Below are positions 4 to 48,146 of a stretch of 53,074 nucleotides of DNA, piece by piece. Origin of the DNA: Verrucomicrobiota bacterium. GTDB taxonomy: Bacteria; Verrucomicrobiota; Verrucomicrobiia; Limisphaerales; UBA11358. A program made the translations under genes and the position numbers. Location: positions 1 to 53,074 of the forward strand of contig JAJPJM010000101.1 of the NCBI GenBank assembly GCA_021324235.1. Reading direction: 5' to 3'. The notes under the pieces are model-generated. The model had not been told where the DNA came from. It saw only the letters and a program-made list of their open reading frames with translations, and searched no databases. How positions within the stretch are numbered: position 1 is the stretch's first letter; each line of letters begins with the position of its first letter.

Positions 4-1554
4 TCATTTGGGTTTGAGCTGCGGGAACAAAATCACGTCGCGGATGCTTTCCTGGCCGAGCAGCATCATGCACAGGCGATCAATGCCCATGCCCATGCCA
101 CCCGCCGGCGGCATGCCGTGTTCCAGCGCAACGAGAAAATCCTCATCCAGCTTTTGCTGCTCGCCGCCGGCCTGGTGTTCCAGCCGTTCACGCTGCTCGA
201 TGGGATCGTTCTGCTCGGTGTAGGCCGGCGCGATTTCCTGGCCGTTGATGCAGCATTCGAAGACTTCGACGGTCGTCGGGTCGTCGGGTGATAATTTGGC
301 GAGCGGCACCAGTTCCTTCGGCAGATGCGTCACAAACGTGGGTTGAATCAACGTCGGCTCGATCAATTTTTCAAACACCGCGCCGGTGACTTCAAAGTCG
401 GCGTAATCTTTGGTAATTTCCGCGCCAAGATCATGCGCGCGCTGACGGCGTTCGGCAGGAGAAACCTCAAACCAATCCGCACCGGCCTTTTCTCGAACGA
501 GGTCCTTGTATTTGGCCCGACGCCAGTCCGGCGTGAGGTCAATCGCCTTTACAACTTTGCCTTCGGCATCTTTCGTTTCAACTTTCAATGTCCCCAGAAC
601 CTTTTCCGCAACATGGCAAATCAGGGATTGGACCAGTTCCATCATGCTCTCGTAATCGCCGAACGCCTGATACGCCTCGAGCATGGTAAATTCGGGGTTG
701 TGTTTGCGCGAGAGGCCTTCGTTGCGGAAGTTGCGGCCGATCTCGAACACCTTGTCCACGCCGCCGACGAGCAGGCGCTTGAGATACAGTTCCAGCGCGA
801 TGCGCAGGTAAAAATCGCAGCCGAGCGCGTTGTGATGGGTCTTGAACGGTTGCGCCGCCGCGCCGCCGGGAATCGCCTGCATCATCGGGGTCTCCACTTC
901 CACAAAGCCGCGCGCCTGCAGAAAATTCCGGATCTCGGTGATGATCCGGCTGCGCTTGAGAAAAACCTCTTTCACTTCCGGGTTCGCCATCAAATCGAGG
1001 TAACGCTGGCGATAACGGATTTCGGTGTCTTCGAGTCCGTGCCACTTGGCCGGCGGCGGGCGGAGCGCCTTGGCGAGAATGACAAACGGTGGATTGGTGG
1101 GGCGAGCGTCCTCGCGAGCCGATTCCGTGGTAGGGACGGCGCGCTGCGCCGTCCGGTCATCGCAGCGCGATGACCCTACCTGTGGCGCGCCACCTAATTT
1201 AATGGAAATCTCGCCGGTCTTGGTCGTGAACAACGTTCCCTTCACACCGATGAAATCCGCCAGATCGAGGTGGGTGAAGATGTTCCATTGCTCATCGCCG
1301 AGCGTATTTTTCTGCGCGTACACCTGGATGCGTCCGCTCTGATCGCGCACATCGATGAACATCGATTTGCCCATGTCGCGGTGCGCGGTCACACGGCCAG
1401 CCACGGCCACTTCGCGGCCTTCGGTGTAATTCTTTCGCGCGTCGGCGCACGATTCCGTGGGCGTGAATTTGTTTTTGAACGGATCAATGCCCTGCTTGCG
1501 CAGCGCGGCGAGCTTGGCCTTGCGCTGTTCGATCAATGAATTCGTGTCGTCCAT
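4..1554 (-). CDS. lysS: Lysine-tRNA ligase, class II, with in-frame repeat insertion
   Basis: Charges tRNA-Lys with lysine in the cytosol. Visible are an N-terminal OB-fold anticodon-binding part (through TKTGEISIK), class II motif 2 (FEIGRNFRNEGLS, HNPEFTMLE) and motif 3 (GMGMGIDRLCMMLLG near the C-terminus). I chose the ATG at 1554, which starts MDDTNSLIEQRKAKL as in the family; an upstream start would add 39 residues with no family resemblance. The protein is 516 aa, slightly longer than usual. About 36 extra residues (roughly 118-155) lie between TGEISIK and FVILAKALRP, where other LysS proteins have only a few. They are encoded by a palindromic repeat (see 1088-1203). All catalytic motifs are intact, so the enzyme is probably functional. 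Confidence 0.96.
   Translation of the reverse strand: MDDTNSLIEQRKAKLAALRKQGIDPFKNKFTPTESCADARKNYTEGREVAVAGRVTAHRDMGKSMFIDVRDQSGRIQVYAQKNTLGDEQWNIFTHLDLADFIGVKGTLFTTKTGEISIKLGGAPQVGSSRCDDRTAQRAVPTTESAREDARPTNPPFVILAKALRPPPAKWHGLEDTEIRYRQRYLDLMANPEVKEVFLKRSRIITEIRNFLQARGFVEVETPMMQAIPGGAAAQPFKTHHNALGCDFYLRIALELYLKRLLVGGVDKVFEIGRNFRNEGLSRKHNPEFTMLEAYQAFGDYESMMELVQSLICHVAEKVLGTLKVETKDAEGKVVKAIDLTPDWRRAKYKDLVREKAGADWFEVSPAERRQRAHDLGAEITKDYADFEVTGAVFEKLIEPTLIQPTFVTHLPKELVPLAKLSPDDPTTVEVFECCINGQEIAPAYTEQNDPIEQRERLEHQAGGEQQKLDEDFLVALEHGMPPAGGMGMGIDRLCMMLLGQESIRDVILFPQLKPK
1088..1203. repeat. Double-hairpin palindromic repeat inserted in frame in lysS
   Basis: Seen directly. Positions 1129-1180 have outer arms GGTAGGG and CCCTACC. 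They enclose two perfect hairpins: GACGGCGC/GCGCCGTC with loop GCT, and GGTCATCGC/GCGATGACC with loop AGC. Just before this, 1096-1121 is a 26-bp block whose exact reverse complement occurs at 19730-19755, after carB. The block keeps the lysS frame open. The same arm-hairpin-hairpin-arm plan occurs inside hemL (45708-45762). Confidence 0.85.
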
Positions 1555-3080: not shown

Positions 3081-3752
3081 TCAACGTTTCGGCGGCGGGT
3101 TCGCGGGTTGGTACAGGCCGGCCTTGATGAAGGGTTCGAGGCGGTCGCCGTAGCCTTCCGCCTGCATTTGGTCCAGGGGGATGAAGCGCAACGACGCCGA
3201 GTTGATGCAGTAACGCAGATGCGTCGGCCCCGGACCATCGTCGAACACGTGGCCGAGATGCGAATCGGCCGCGCGAGAACGGACTTCGATGCGATTCATA
3301 CCGTACGAATGGTCGGCGTGTTCGGTAACTTCCTGGCTCGAAACGGGTTTCGTGAAACTCGGCCAGCCACAGCCGGAATCGAATTTGTCCAGCGAGCTGA
3401 ACAACGGCTCGCCCGACACCACGTCCACGTAAATCCCCGGTTCGTGATTGTCCCAATACGCGTTGTGGAAGGCCGGCTCGGTGGCGGCTTTTTGCGTCAC
3501 GGCGAATTGTTCGGCGGTCAGTTCTTTTTTCAACTGCGCCTCACTGGGCTTCTTGAAATCTTTCATATCCATGGGTTGATTGGTTGAAATGGCTGCCGGC
3601 TGCGCGTCAACGATGCTGCGCGGGAACGCCACAACGCCCACCGCCAGCAACGCGGACGCCGCAAAGAGAATGACTCCGGCTGATCGCACGCGGTTTCGAC
3701 GGATTTTATCCGGTTCGTGTTCAATGTTCCTCGTATTCAGATGAATTCCCAA
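3081..3752 (-). CDS. msrB: Peptide-methionine (R)-S-oxide reductase, exported
   Basis: Reduces methionine-R-sulfoxide in proteins. The 223-aa chain starts with a basic segment and one hydrophobic helix (about residues 24-43, [17 protein letters not shown]), so it is exported or membrane-anchored and would act in the periplasm. The MsrB domain follows: [58 protein letters not shown] and the catalytic cysteine in RYCINSAS (about C182). The CxxC zinc pairs of many MsrB proteins are missing ([11 protein letters not shown] replaces a CxxC), so this is a zinc-free type. It overlaps the upstream MEKHLA gene by 16 bp, suggesting translational coupling and a redox-stress role for the operon. A small hairpin (CGGTTT/AAACCG, 3066-3080) touches the stop. 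Confidence 0.94.
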
Positions 3753-5380: not shown

Positions 5381-5460
5381 GGCAGGGCGCGATGTCCTCA
5401 TCGCGCCGCAATATTAAACTCATCTCCCGGCGGCGGACTGGGGCCAGCCCGCCCTATCTG
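5381..5460. repeat. Double-hairpin palindromic repeat between ABM and Fe-ADH genes
   Basis: Contains the perfect hairpin GGCGCGATG-TCCT-CATCGCGCC (5386-5407) and a second imperfect one, GGCGGACTGG/CCAGCCCGCC (about 5432-5453). On the minus strand it begins ATAGGG and ends CCTGCC, resembling the GGTAGGG...CCCTACC arms of the repeats in lysS and hemL. It contains the stop codon of the ABM gene (5454-5456) and lies just upstream of the Fe-ADH start. Confidence 0.7.
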
Positions 5461-16144: not shown

Positions 16145-16723
16145 ATGCCAAAAAAAGACCCGCGTGTTGACGCCTATATCGCCAGGGCTGGCGAATTCGC
16201 CCGGCCGATTCTTAATCGCATACGCAAGCTCGTCCATGCCGCGTGCCCGGACGTGCAGGAAACCATGAAATGGCGTGTGCCGTTTTTCGCGCATAAAGGG
16301 AATTTGATTACCATGCCGGCGTTCAAACGGCATTGCGCACTCATTTTTTGGAAGGGCCGGTTGTTCCTGAACGAAGACCAGAAGACGAAGCTTCGTCGTC
16401 TCACTTCCATTTCCGAATTGCCCGGCGACAAAACTCTCACCGGCTACATCAAGAAAGCCATCGAACTCAATGAAGCCGGAATCAAGATTCCGCGTCCCAA
16501 ACCGAAGCCGAAAAAACCAGTCGTCGTGCCGGATTACTTTCTGACCGCGCTGAAGCAGAACAAGAAGGCGCTGGCCGCGTTCGCGGATTTCAGTCCCAGT
16601 CACAAACGGGAATACGTCGAGTGGATTACCGAAGCCAAACGCGAAGAGACGCGCGCCAAACGCATCCAGGCCGCCGTCAAACTGATGGCCAAAGGAAAAT
16701 CGCGGAACTGGAAATATGAGTAA
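16145..16723 (+). CDS. DUF1801 / YdeI-OmpD-associated family protein
   Basis: A 192-aa cytosolic protein. The N-terminal DUF1801 (YdhG-like) fold, residues 1-100, includes ARPILNRIRKLVHAACPDVQ, MKWRVPFFAHKGNLI and RHCALIFWKG. A basic proline hinge (RPKPKPKKP) leads to the C-terminal YdeI/OmpD-associated segment: FLTALKQNKKALAAFADFSP, HKREYVEWITEAKREETR, then RIQAAVKLMAKGKSRNWKYE. Family members are linked to bacteriocin or peptide stress protection, but the mechanism is unclear. ATG 16145 is preferred to the TTG two codons upstream. A degenerate palindromic repeat begins 3 bp after the stop codon. Confidence 0.88.
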   Translation: MPKKDPRVDAYIARAGEFARPILNRIRKLVHAACPDVQETMKWRVPFFAHKGNLITMPAFKRHCALIFWKGRLFLNEDQKTKLRRLTSISELPGDKTLTGYIKKAIELNEAGIKIPRPKPKPKKPVVVPDYFLTALKQNKKALAAFADFSPSHKREYVEWITEAKREETRAKRIQAAVKLMAKGKSRNWKYE

Positions 16724-16725
16724 AT

Positions 16726-16770
16726 TGGTGGGGCGAGGCTACTGACGAGCCGGCTCGCGAGGATCACCGC
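16726..16770. repeat. Degenerate copy of the lysS/carB repeat
   Basis: Starts GGTGGGGCGAG and later has CGGCTCGCGAGGA, the two arms of the 26-bp block at 1096-1121 and 19730-19755 in rearranged order. It lies directly after the stop codon (16721-16723) of the YdeI-like gene. Confidence 0.6.
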
Positions 16771-19054: not shown

Positions 19055-19603
19055 TCAGCGCCTTCTGGCCTTGGGTTTGTCCTCGTCACATTTCACATGG
19101 AACCCGATTTCCCGTCGTTTGGGTTCCGGCGGTGACATTAGCTGCCGGATGGCATCGAAGACAACTTTGAACTGCCGGTCGTATTTCTTTTCCATGGCAT
19201 CCAGTTTGCGGGCCAGTTCGGCATTGGAGGCCAGCATTTGCCGCAGCCGCACGAACGCGCGCACCACCATGACGCTGGTCTGGGTAGCCCGTTCGCTGTT
19301 CAACACGTTAGCCAGCATCAACGCACCGTGCTCGGTGAAAGCGTAGGGCAAATACTTCCGATGCTCCCCGCGCTTTAAGGTCACAAATTGTGACCTTAAA
19401 GATTCCCACTCCCCAGCGATGAGTTGGAACATGAAATCAGGCGGAAAACGGTTCAGATTGCGTTTGACCGCTTGATTGAGAACTTTGGTGGGAACACCGT
19501 AAAGCTCGGCCAAATCGCTATCGAGCATCACCTTCTCGCCGCGAATGGAAAGGATTGCCCGCTCAATTCGTTCCACCGGAACCAAACTCATTTGCCCGTC
19601 CAT
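19055..19603 (-). CDS. ORF6N domain DNA-binding-type protein
   Basis: A 182-aa protein with the ORF6N domain, first seen in phage and mobile-element proteins and thought to bind DNA. Seen: [47 protein letters not shown] and [20 protein letters not shown]-terminal helix (about 115-150) resembles a coiled coil and ends in a basic tail. No phage structural genes are near. A perfect 29-bp palindrome (19373-19401) lies inside the coding sequence and encodes LRSQFVTLK. Palindromes with the same core form an array upstream (19622-19727). The start could be ATG 19603 or the ATG four codons later. The gene may be autoregulated through, or mobilise, its palindromes (inference). Confidence 0.88.
19373..19401. 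repeat. 29-bp perfect palindrome inside the ORF6N gene
   Basis: Left arm CTTTAAGGTCACAA, central A, right arm TTGTGACCTTAAAG, perfectly complementary. It shares the GGTCACAAATTGTGACC core with palindromes upstream of the gene at 19681-19697 and, with one mismatch, 19649-19669. Confidence 0.9.
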
Positions 19604-19621
19604 TTCAGGCCTTTCACCCAG

Positions 19622-19727
19622 AGGTGGTCACAGTCTGTGACCACCTTCAAGATCACAAATTGTGACCTTAACCCGAACCGGTCACAAATTGTGACCGGTT
19701 CTTTGAAATGCCAAATTGGCATTTCAA
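19622..19727. repeat. Array of four palindromes upstream of ORF6N gene
   Basis: Four inverted repeats in tandem, each centred on a single base: 19622-19646 (AGGTGGTCACAG-T-CTGTGACCACCT), 19649-19669 (GGTCACAA type, one mismatch), 19675-19701 (GAACCGGTCACAA-A-TTGTGACCGGTTC, perfect) and 19703-19727 (TTGAAATGCCAA-A-TTGGCATTTCAA, perfect). Three share the CAAATTG core. The array covers the promoter region of the ORF6N gene and abuts the carB-associated repeat at 19730. Confidence 0.9.
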
Positions 19728-19729
19728 GA

Positions 19730-19775
19730 CGGCTCGCGAGGACGCTCGCCCCACCGGCGCGTGACGCGCCCTACC
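19730..19775. repeat. Palindromic repeat immediately after carB
   Basis: Positions 19730-19755 are the exact reverse complement of 1096-1121 inside lysS (26/26). They are followed by the hairpin GGCGCG-TGA-CGCGCC and CTACC (19756-19775). The repeat lies 3 bp beyond the carB stop codon and 2 bp from the ORF6N-linked palindrome array. Confidence 0.88.
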
Positions 19776-19778
19776 TGG

Positions 19779-21314
<1,536 letters not shown>

Positions 21315-44750: not shown

Positions 44751-46076
44751 ATGAAACAGAGTCAATCGGAAAAACTGTTTGCCGAGGCGTTGAGATTCAT
44801 CCCCGGGGGTGTCAACTCACCGGTGCGCGCGTTCCGCGCCGTCGGCGGCCAGCCGTTTTTCGTCAACCGGGCCCAGGGCGCACATCTGTGGGACGTGGAC
44901 GGCAACGAGTTCATTGATTACGTCTGTACCTGGGGGCCGGCGATTCTCGGCCATGCGCATCCGAAAATCATTTCCGCCGTCAAGGCCGCGGCCGATCACG
45001 GCACCAGTTTCGGCGTCCCCAATCCACAGGAAGTGACCATGGCGAAGCTGATTTGCTCGCTCGTGCCCGGTGTGCAGAAGGTGCGGATGACCAATTCCGG
45101 CACCGAGGCGTGCATGAGCGCCATCCGTCTGGCGCGCGGATTCACCGGGCGAGATAAAATCGTCAAGTTCGACGGCTGTTATCATGGTCATGCGGATTCT
45201 CTGCTGGTCAAGGCGGGCAGCGGCGCGCTCACGTTCGGCCATCCGGACAGCGCGGGTGTGCCGGCGGCGTTCACACAACACACCATCGTCTTGCCATTCA
45301 ATGATGTTGACGCCGTAACGGCCGCGGTCGAAGCGAATAAAAATCAAATCGCCGGCATCATCGTCGAGCCCGTGCCGGGCAATGCCGGGCTTTATCTGCC
45401 CCAACCGGGTTATCTGGAATTTCTTCGGGAAATCACGCAGGCGAACGGGGCGTTGTTGATTTTCGACGAGGTGATGACGGGGTTCCGCCTGGCCCCCGGC
45501 GGGGCGCAGGAACGGTTTGGCATCACGCCGGATTTGATGTGTTTCGGCAAAATCATTGGCGGCGGCCTGCCGGTGGGTGCGTTCGGCGGGCGGGCGGACA
45601 TCATGGATTTGCTGGCGCCGCTGGGACCGGTTTACCAAGCCGGCACGTTGAGCGGCAATCCGCTGGCGATGGCAGCGGGCATCGCCGCGCTGGAGGAATT
45701 GAACATCGGTAAGGACGCGCGGACCGCGCGTCCGACGGACGGCCCGGCGGGCCGTCCCTACCAACATCTGGAACAACTCGGCGCGCAACTGGAAGCGGGG
45801 ATGAAGGACGCCGCGAAATCCGCCGGTATTCCGGTCACGTTCAACCGTTGCGGCTCGATGTTTTGCGCCTACTTCACAAGCGGACCGGTTCATCATCTGG
45901 CCGACGCGATGAAGAGCGACCGCGCGCGGTTCGCCAAATTTTTCCACGGGATGCTGGCCAGGGGCGTTTACCTCGCGCCCTCACAATTCGAGGCGGGCTT
46001 CCTTTCCACCGCGCACACGGCCGCGGACATTGATTCAACGGTAAAGGCCGCCGCAAGCGTGATGCGCGGGTGGTAG
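44751..46076 (+). CDS. hemL: Glutamate-1-semialdehyde 2,1-aminomutase, with repeat insertion
   Basis: Makes 5-aminolevulinate for heme and other tetrapyrroles; PLP-dependent, cytosolic. A 441-aa protein: [60 protein letters not shown] and the PLP lysine in [17 protein letters not shown] (about K267). Near residues 320-338 about 18 extra residues ([18 protein letters not shown]) separate EELN from the helix [14 protein letters not shown]. They are encoded by a double-hairpin repeat (45708-45762). Relatives go straight from ALEEL to a short turn here. Catalytic parts are intact. The upstream gap to the divergent oxidoreductase (92 bp) holds both promoters. Confidence 0.96.
45708..45762. repeat. 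Double-hairpin palindromic repeat inserted in frame in hemL
   Basis: Arms GGTAAGG and CCCTACC enclose GGACGCGCGG-A-CCGCGCGTCC and GGACGGCCC-GGC-GGGCCGTCC, both perfect. Architecture equals that at 1129-1180 in lysS, although the stem sequences differ, so arms and plan are conserved rather than stems. Confidence 0.88.
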
Positions 46077-48069: not shown

Positions 48070-48146
48070 GCGCGCGTAGCTCAATTGGATAGAGCGTCGG
48101 CCTCCGGAGCCGAAGGTTGTGGGTTCGACCCCCGCCGCGCGCACCA
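48070..48146 (+). tRNA. tRNA-Arg (anticodon CCG)
   Basis: A 77-nt cloverleaf seen directly: acceptor GCGCGCG/CGCGCGC, D arm GCTC...GAGC with AATTGGATA loop, anticodon stem TCGGC/GCCGA with loop CTCCGGA (anticodon CCG), variable AGGTT, T arm GTGGG-TTCGACC-CCCGC (one G-T pair), discriminator A and encoded CCA. Anticodon CCG reads CGG arginine codons. Confidence 0.97.

Follow-up and report, generated by a model that had tools for sequence, protein, structure and literature searches.

The 26-base block just beyond carB is probably one arm of a REP/REPIN-like, partly MITE-borne family of mobile palindromes that has been filtered by selection, and not a gene-end signal. The repeat is best described as a version of the REP/REPIN kind that is GTGG-tagged, carried in part on MITEs and often translated. 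The window analyzed here, 53,074 nucleotides long, is the whole of one contig (C159) in a 3.09-Mb assembly of 185 contigs (genome G000), and the nearest named relatives of this genome are Verrucomicrobia subdivision 3 genomes. As originally predicted, positions 19730-19755 equal the reverse complement of 1096-1121 in 26/26 bases; the number of exact 26-nt inverted pairs expected by chance in a window of the same composition is about 6e-7. A genome-wide search with mismatches shows that the pair is not unique, as the block, which we call the A arm, has 35 copies at ≤3 mismatches in the assembly and its reversed-pattern control has 0. A joint consensus of the A arm and a second type, the B arm, finds 60 arms in the assembly vs 1 in the reversed control. 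Of 59 genomes surveyed in the order (Verrucomicrobia subdivision 3), 40 have the same arms, with 0 in the reversed controls.

Table 1. Palindromic units and genes of the window, and RAYT domains located inside essential proteins of the order (window coordinates unless a locus is named).
Feature	Position or genomes	Strand	Context
lysS, 555 aa	4..1671	-	open across the insertion
35-codon in-frame insertion in LysS linker (aa 161-195)	1087..1191	-	built of the three palindromes below
A arm, identical to the copy after carB	1096..1121	+	inside lysS; read ..SAREDARPT.. in frame on the minus strand
GTAG-tagged REP hairpin GGTAGGGACGGCGCGCTGCGCCGTCC	1129..1154	+	inside lysS
Inverted partner GGTAGGGTCATCGCGCTGCGATGACC	1155..1180	-	completes the REP doublet inside lysS
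GCAG-tagged hairpin GGCAGGGCGCGATGTCCTCATCGCGCC, other palindrome type	5381..5407	+	between the ABM gene and the Fe-ADH gene
B-type arm GGTGGGGCGAGGCTACTGACGAGCCG	16727..16752	+	3 nt past the YdeI/OmdA stop (gene 16145-16723)
GTGG-tagged palindromic arm, A type GGTGGGGCGAGCGTCCTCGCGAGCCG	19730..19755	-	after carB
Second, GTAG-tagged hairpin GGTAGGGCGCGTCACGCGCC	19756..19775	-	head-to-tail with the A arm
carB N-terminal half-gene, 511 aa	19779..21314	-	
RAYT in PriA	G000, G022, G031, G035		just before the Walker A motif; G018 and G030 have a different RAYT type at this place
RAYT-in-priA loci	L131:1593-4514 (own genome, C76); L277, L278, L281, L324, L325	+ (L131)	
RAYT in AlaRS	L155, L312-L316, L318		two sites, seven genomes
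RAYT in ClpB	L152, L320, L323		three genomes
RAYT in DnaE	L279, L322		two genomes
RAYT in ThrRS	L280		
RAYT in DinG-like helicase	L321		

The arms follow the pattern GGTGGGGCGAG-N8-CGAGCCG. The A arm reads GGTGGGGCGAG CGTCCTCG CGAGCCG and the B arm GGTGGGGCGAG GCTACTGA CGAGCCG; the two types agree in the outer 11 and the inner 7 bases but not in the middle 8, and the B arm at 16727 is 5 substitutions from A. All six frames of the A arm are free of stops, as read from the sequence. Arms may stand singly, pair as inverted doublets, line up in tandem arrays or form the core of longer elements. The stretches of G000 and its relative G023 that were read contain 51 inverted doublets, 34 singlets and 9 other arrangements, the commonest form in these two genomes being an A arm followed by an inverted B arm across a spacer of 0, about 20 or 28 bases. 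Inverted doublets are 50-89 bp long and fold strongly as single-stranded DNA (-19.4 kcal/mol, z -5.0; also z -3.8), whereas single arms fold no better than shuffles (A, z -0.4; B, z 0.0), unlike classic REPs. The companion GTAG-tagged module, GGTAGGG-N4-CGCGCTGCG-N4-CC, has 37 matches in the assembly, and its hairpin folds well alone (z -4.2). Singlets in G000 are not more decayed than doublets (17.80 vs 17.71 matches of 18), a comparison biased by the 3-mismatch search cut. At seven sites common to G000 and G023, arms are 94% and flanks 77% conserved; this contrast is biased by the search at ≤3 mismatches per arm, and we do not use it as evidence. We also observed tandem arrays of GTGG arms in G023 (L257:11-231 and 2126-2337; L265:1699-1988 and 3592-3749; L276), at spacings of 33, 36 or 39 bp, each a multiple of three. 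These arrays lie within long open frames that repeat the peptide TARGDARPT, as if REP units had turned into coding repeats. Within the window itself, a perfect GTAG-tagged hairpin (GTAGGGACGGCCCGCCGGGCCGTCC) lies at 45737-45761 on the minus strand, within an open frame on the plus strand (44751-46076).

The block after carB had been described as part of a longer hairpin element. A second unit does adjoin it, but the two do not form a single long hairpin: a GTAG hairpin of 20 nt and the 26-nt arm stand head-to-tail on the minus strand, and the outer end of the GTAG hairpin is 3 nt past the carB stop codon (19779-19781). Of the two related elements proposed elsewhere in the window, the one after the YdeI-like gene is a B-arm variant followed, to about 16770, by a decayed inverted arm. 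The other, at 5381, is a different palindrome, more than 7 mismatches from either arm; it comes 47 nt past the stop of the ABM gene (5454, minus strand) and overlaps the called 5' end of the Fe-ADH gene. A scan against Rfam for known RNA families matched only a tRNA at 48070.

The original prediction held that the family favors the first bases after stop codons as well as gene interiors, suggesting a 3'-end or terminator role or an insertion preference. The family is dispersed, and copies are found both just past stops and inside genes: of 89 elements from two genomes, 53 are intergenic and 36 are within ORFs, in frame. A preference for gene ends is not supported. Each of the 53 intergenic copies was moved randomly within its own gap, using gene calls from a simple dicodon caller whose ORF starts are approximate. 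Of these copies, 14 lie within 25 bp of a stop vs 9.5 expected (p = 0.03), a slight surplus; the corresponding figures are 8 vs 6.4 (p = 0.27) within 15 bp and 17 vs 12.9 (p = 0.06) within 40 bp. When GTGG and GTAG units of the own genome are taken together, 17 lie within 40 bp of a stop vs 11.7 expected (p = 0.006). Within 40 bp of a start we found 8 copies vs 16.4 expected, a count that 99.99% of permutations reached or exceeded, and 20/53 intergenic copies lie in gaps bounded by divergent starts, where neither neighbor presents a stop. Because the depletion at starts is clear, the excess at stops is weak and these 20 gaps are start-start, start avoidance is the main force, and the copies after carB and YdeI stand out as memorable cases of a weak stop-side trend. 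A functional 3'-end element, with palindromes kept past stops as terminators or mRNA-stabilizing hairpins, would agree with the units placed 3 nt past the YdeI and carB stops, with the mild stop excess and with REPs elsewhere, which are mostly beside 3' ends (PMC3733652). However, start avoidance accounts for the skew, and neither the copies between divergent starts nor the 36/89 inside ORFs fit such an element. No T-tract or terminator-like site is found at 19720-19780, no run of T follows the hairpins on the carB strand, and quite different DNA lies past carB in 18 other genomes. We therefore regard a 3'-end element as highly doubtful and a gene-end role for the repeat as unlikely; we reject termination as the main role on the missing T-tract, the divergent-start copies and the in-ORF copies.

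The other copy of the original pair lies inside lysS, where the A arm adjoins a GTAG doublet (Table 1). When compared with 59 relatives, LysS residues 161-195 are missing in about 40 genomes, with 0-7 nt at the junction and collinear protein on both sides. At the level of sequence comparison, this empty site in relatives demonstrates insertion at LysS. At this linker, palindromic inserts of other kinds are found in three further genomes (L079, L102, L103), giving four insert kinds overall. Because these inserts have flanking residues in common (GG...PPFVI), the linker was either opened once, with turnover of its content, or entered repeatedly. Further in-frame elements are found in GlmS, LeuRS, PheT, PurL, RibD, MoeA, glutamyl-tRNA reductase (GlutR), XseA, TilS and others; in most cases the frames of the host genes are open and their domains recognized. 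Separately, the catalytic domain of LysS in many relatives contains an extra, variable stretch about 80-150 aa long (query about 366-374; L102, L103, L105-L107); the sequence of this insertion varies between genomes, and it is absent from the LysS of the window. With 36/89 elements in frame, and with the regularly spaced TARGDARPT arrays of G023, it could be proposed that a stop-free palindrome is kept for a function at the protein level, as a translated module (ARPT / GGAS.ASR repeats) similar to a linker or repeat domain. We find this very hard to credit, as the peptides vary by frame and strand among hosts, most copies are intergenic, and the insert is absent from the LysS of about 40 relatives.

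A longer form of the element carries a 12-bp terminal inverted repeat (TIR), GGTAGTGGTACA...TGTACCACTACC, outside the arms, and similarity ends beyond it. This TIR is carried by about a third of the intergenic copies, and by 17/58 intergenic vs 2/36 in-gene elements (Fisher p = 0.007); TIR-bounded elements are 90-145 bp long. Seven copies with both ends have 8-bp target site duplications (TSDs) outside the TIR, for example GAATTTTC / GAATTTTC (permutation p = 0.0004), and none of the 51 naked doublets has a TSD of at least 4 nt at its edges. The carB copy is without TIR or TSD, and only the long intergenic subset qualifies as a MITE. In G022 (L344-L346), the REP modules enclosed by the TIR GGTAGTGGTACG are of the GTAG and not the GTGG type. 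The same TIR ends are thus found around GTAG modules, and therefore the TIR/TSD-bounded element has exchangeable REP cores. No TIR pair 1-2 kb apart, as would mark an autonomous element with GGTAGTGGTACA ends, was found in three genomes. The TIR and 8-bp TSD of the full copies, together with the other cores that the TIR carries, could mean that all copies are remnants of one 90-145-bp MITE mobilized by a DDE transposase, the short ones having lost their ends. However, in-gene doublets, including those at sites common to two genomes, have neither TIR nor TSD, an exact in-frame loss of both ends across many genes is unlikely, and the core also builds tandem arrays. On balance, we consider a pure MITE origin unlikely.

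The preferred reading, a REP/REPIN-like family borne only in part on MITEs, places the repeat among several known systems. Opitutus terrae, a verrucomicrobium, has GTAG-20 REPs, most of them with a GTGG tag (Di Nocera et al. 2013, PMC3733652), with which the family is compared here by description. As in the GTAG superfamily, a tag stands at the foot of the palindrome, GTGG on the A and B arms and GTAG on their companions, and 60 GTGG arms and 37 GTAG units are dispersed in 3.09 Mb. Like GTAG-tagged REPs (PMC3733652), the elements are short tagged palindromes that form inverted dimers with variable spacers, belong to several families per genome and have many ORF-internal copies, including ones in tRNA synthetase and DNA-repair genes. 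Unlike those REPs, single GTGG arms fold weakly, a subset is TIR/TSD-bounded and no adjoining RAYT was found. Inverted REP doublets that form one long hairpin and outnumber singlets (51 vs 34) recall REPINs (Bertels & Rainey 2011, PMC3116915), yet REPINs are extragenic and near their RAYT, and their singlets are more decayed. The present family differs on each count: 40% of its elements lie in ORFs, no adjoining RAYT was found, and its singlets show no greater decay than its doublets. Rickettsia palindromic elements (RPEs; PMC3733652) are likewise in-frame palindromes within housekeeping genes, but their tag is CGTC and not GTGG or GTAG, and they belong to another phylum. The long form is MITE-like in its TIRs, its 8-bp TSD and its want of an ORF; unlike MITEs, the family includes naked doublets without TIR and TSD, and its cores are exchangeable REP modules.

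When single-stranded, the paired arms of a doublet form one long hairpin. We infer that the naked doublets spread by single-strand transposition of the HUH/Y1, RAYT type, and that the TIR-bounded form would be moved cut-and-paste by a DDE-type transposase acting in trans. The companion GTAG-tagged REP module can fill the same core. Y1/RAYT-type transposases are encoded in all nine genomes examined for them. In these nine genomes, whose assemblies are incomplete, 0/34 RAYT loci are directly flanked by GTGG arms and 3/34 have a doublet within 1.5 kb; the missing adjoining RAYT counts against RAYT-driven transposition of the naked doublets. The visible copies would be those spared by selection, lying off starts, past stops, in intergenic DNA or where they encode a short tolerated peptide, and the carB copy would be a by-product of this filter and not a 3'-end signal.

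The carB gene of the window is only half-length, which raises the possibility of truncation by the element. This was ruled out: in 40 relatives carB is as a rule half-length too (about 500-530 aa), as is usual in the order, so the repeat has cut nothing off the gene. Beyond the stop of carB the DNA is different in almost every genome, and the 18 other genomes noted above carry unrelated DNA there. Only G045 also has an A arm after carB; with it come GGTCACAATTTGTGACC palindromes and a fragment of ORF6N that matches 19055-19603 of the window at 87% identity. Judged by sequence, the regions downstream of carB in G000 and G045 are one common module. Because carB 3'-end fragments recur 0.5-5 kb further downstream (G001, G005, G006, G010, G038, G044, G045), the comparison suggests that the carB 3' end is an integration site for cassettes; among the papers listed in a literature search on carB in such a role, none was relevant. 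The cassettes seen after carB (window 19055-19779, L108-L127) include an ORF6N gene, a methylase-like gene and, in G001, a Y1 transposase. Near-perfect palindromes (GGTCACAAATTGTGACC, TTGAAATGCCAATTTGGCATTTCAA) in 19373-19735 flank the ORF6N-domain gene of the window (19055-19603) and recur with ORF6N after carB in G045; they are possibly operators or ends of the ORF6N cassette.

Across the order, complete Y1 (RAYT) domains with HUH and YIxxNP motifs are also found in frame inside essential proteins (Table 1), which is more surprising than the finding from which we started. No report of in-frame RAYTs in essential genes was found in the open-licence papers searched; REPs in genes are known (PMC3733652). 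The priA insert of the own genome is bounded by inverted GTAG-tagged REP pairs, and the REP of this RAYT has only 4 copies in the genome, where abundance had been expected. About 50 relatives have an uninterrupted priA. Between G000 and G022, dS is 0.30 for the RAYT and 0.83-1.26 for PriA, with a RAYT dN/dS of about 0.15; between G030 and G031, PriA is 90-93% identical and the RAYTs only 32%. The lower RAYT dS in the first pair and the divergent RAYTs within near-identical PriA in the second therefore argue that the cassette entered, or was replaced at, the priA site after the hosts diverged. We offer tentatively, and with more doubt than confidence, that REPs and RAYTs in Verrucomicrobia subdivision 3 may follow an intein-like strategy without splicing, in which stop-free palindromes and whole REP-flanked RAYT cassettes would insert in frame into essential genes and be retained there as protein insertions that the host tolerates. 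RAYT cassettes would repeatedly re-enter the same sites (PriA before the Walker A motif, the two AlaRS sites, ClpB, DnaE) in the manner of homing endonucleases, and the repeats after carB and in lysS would represent the small, non-autonomous part of the strategy.

These findings have a practical side for annotation, where such inserts create spurious "domains" in tRNA synthetases and helicases. An apparent gene-end motif has resolved into an order-wide family of mobile palindromes that enters essential housekeeping genes in frame, and REP modules, MITEs and RAYTs are linked in one mosaic. The LysS and PriA sites, seen both empty and filled, offer concrete material for testing how coding DNA is invaded by small palindromes and HUH transposases and how the host proteins accommodate the inserts.
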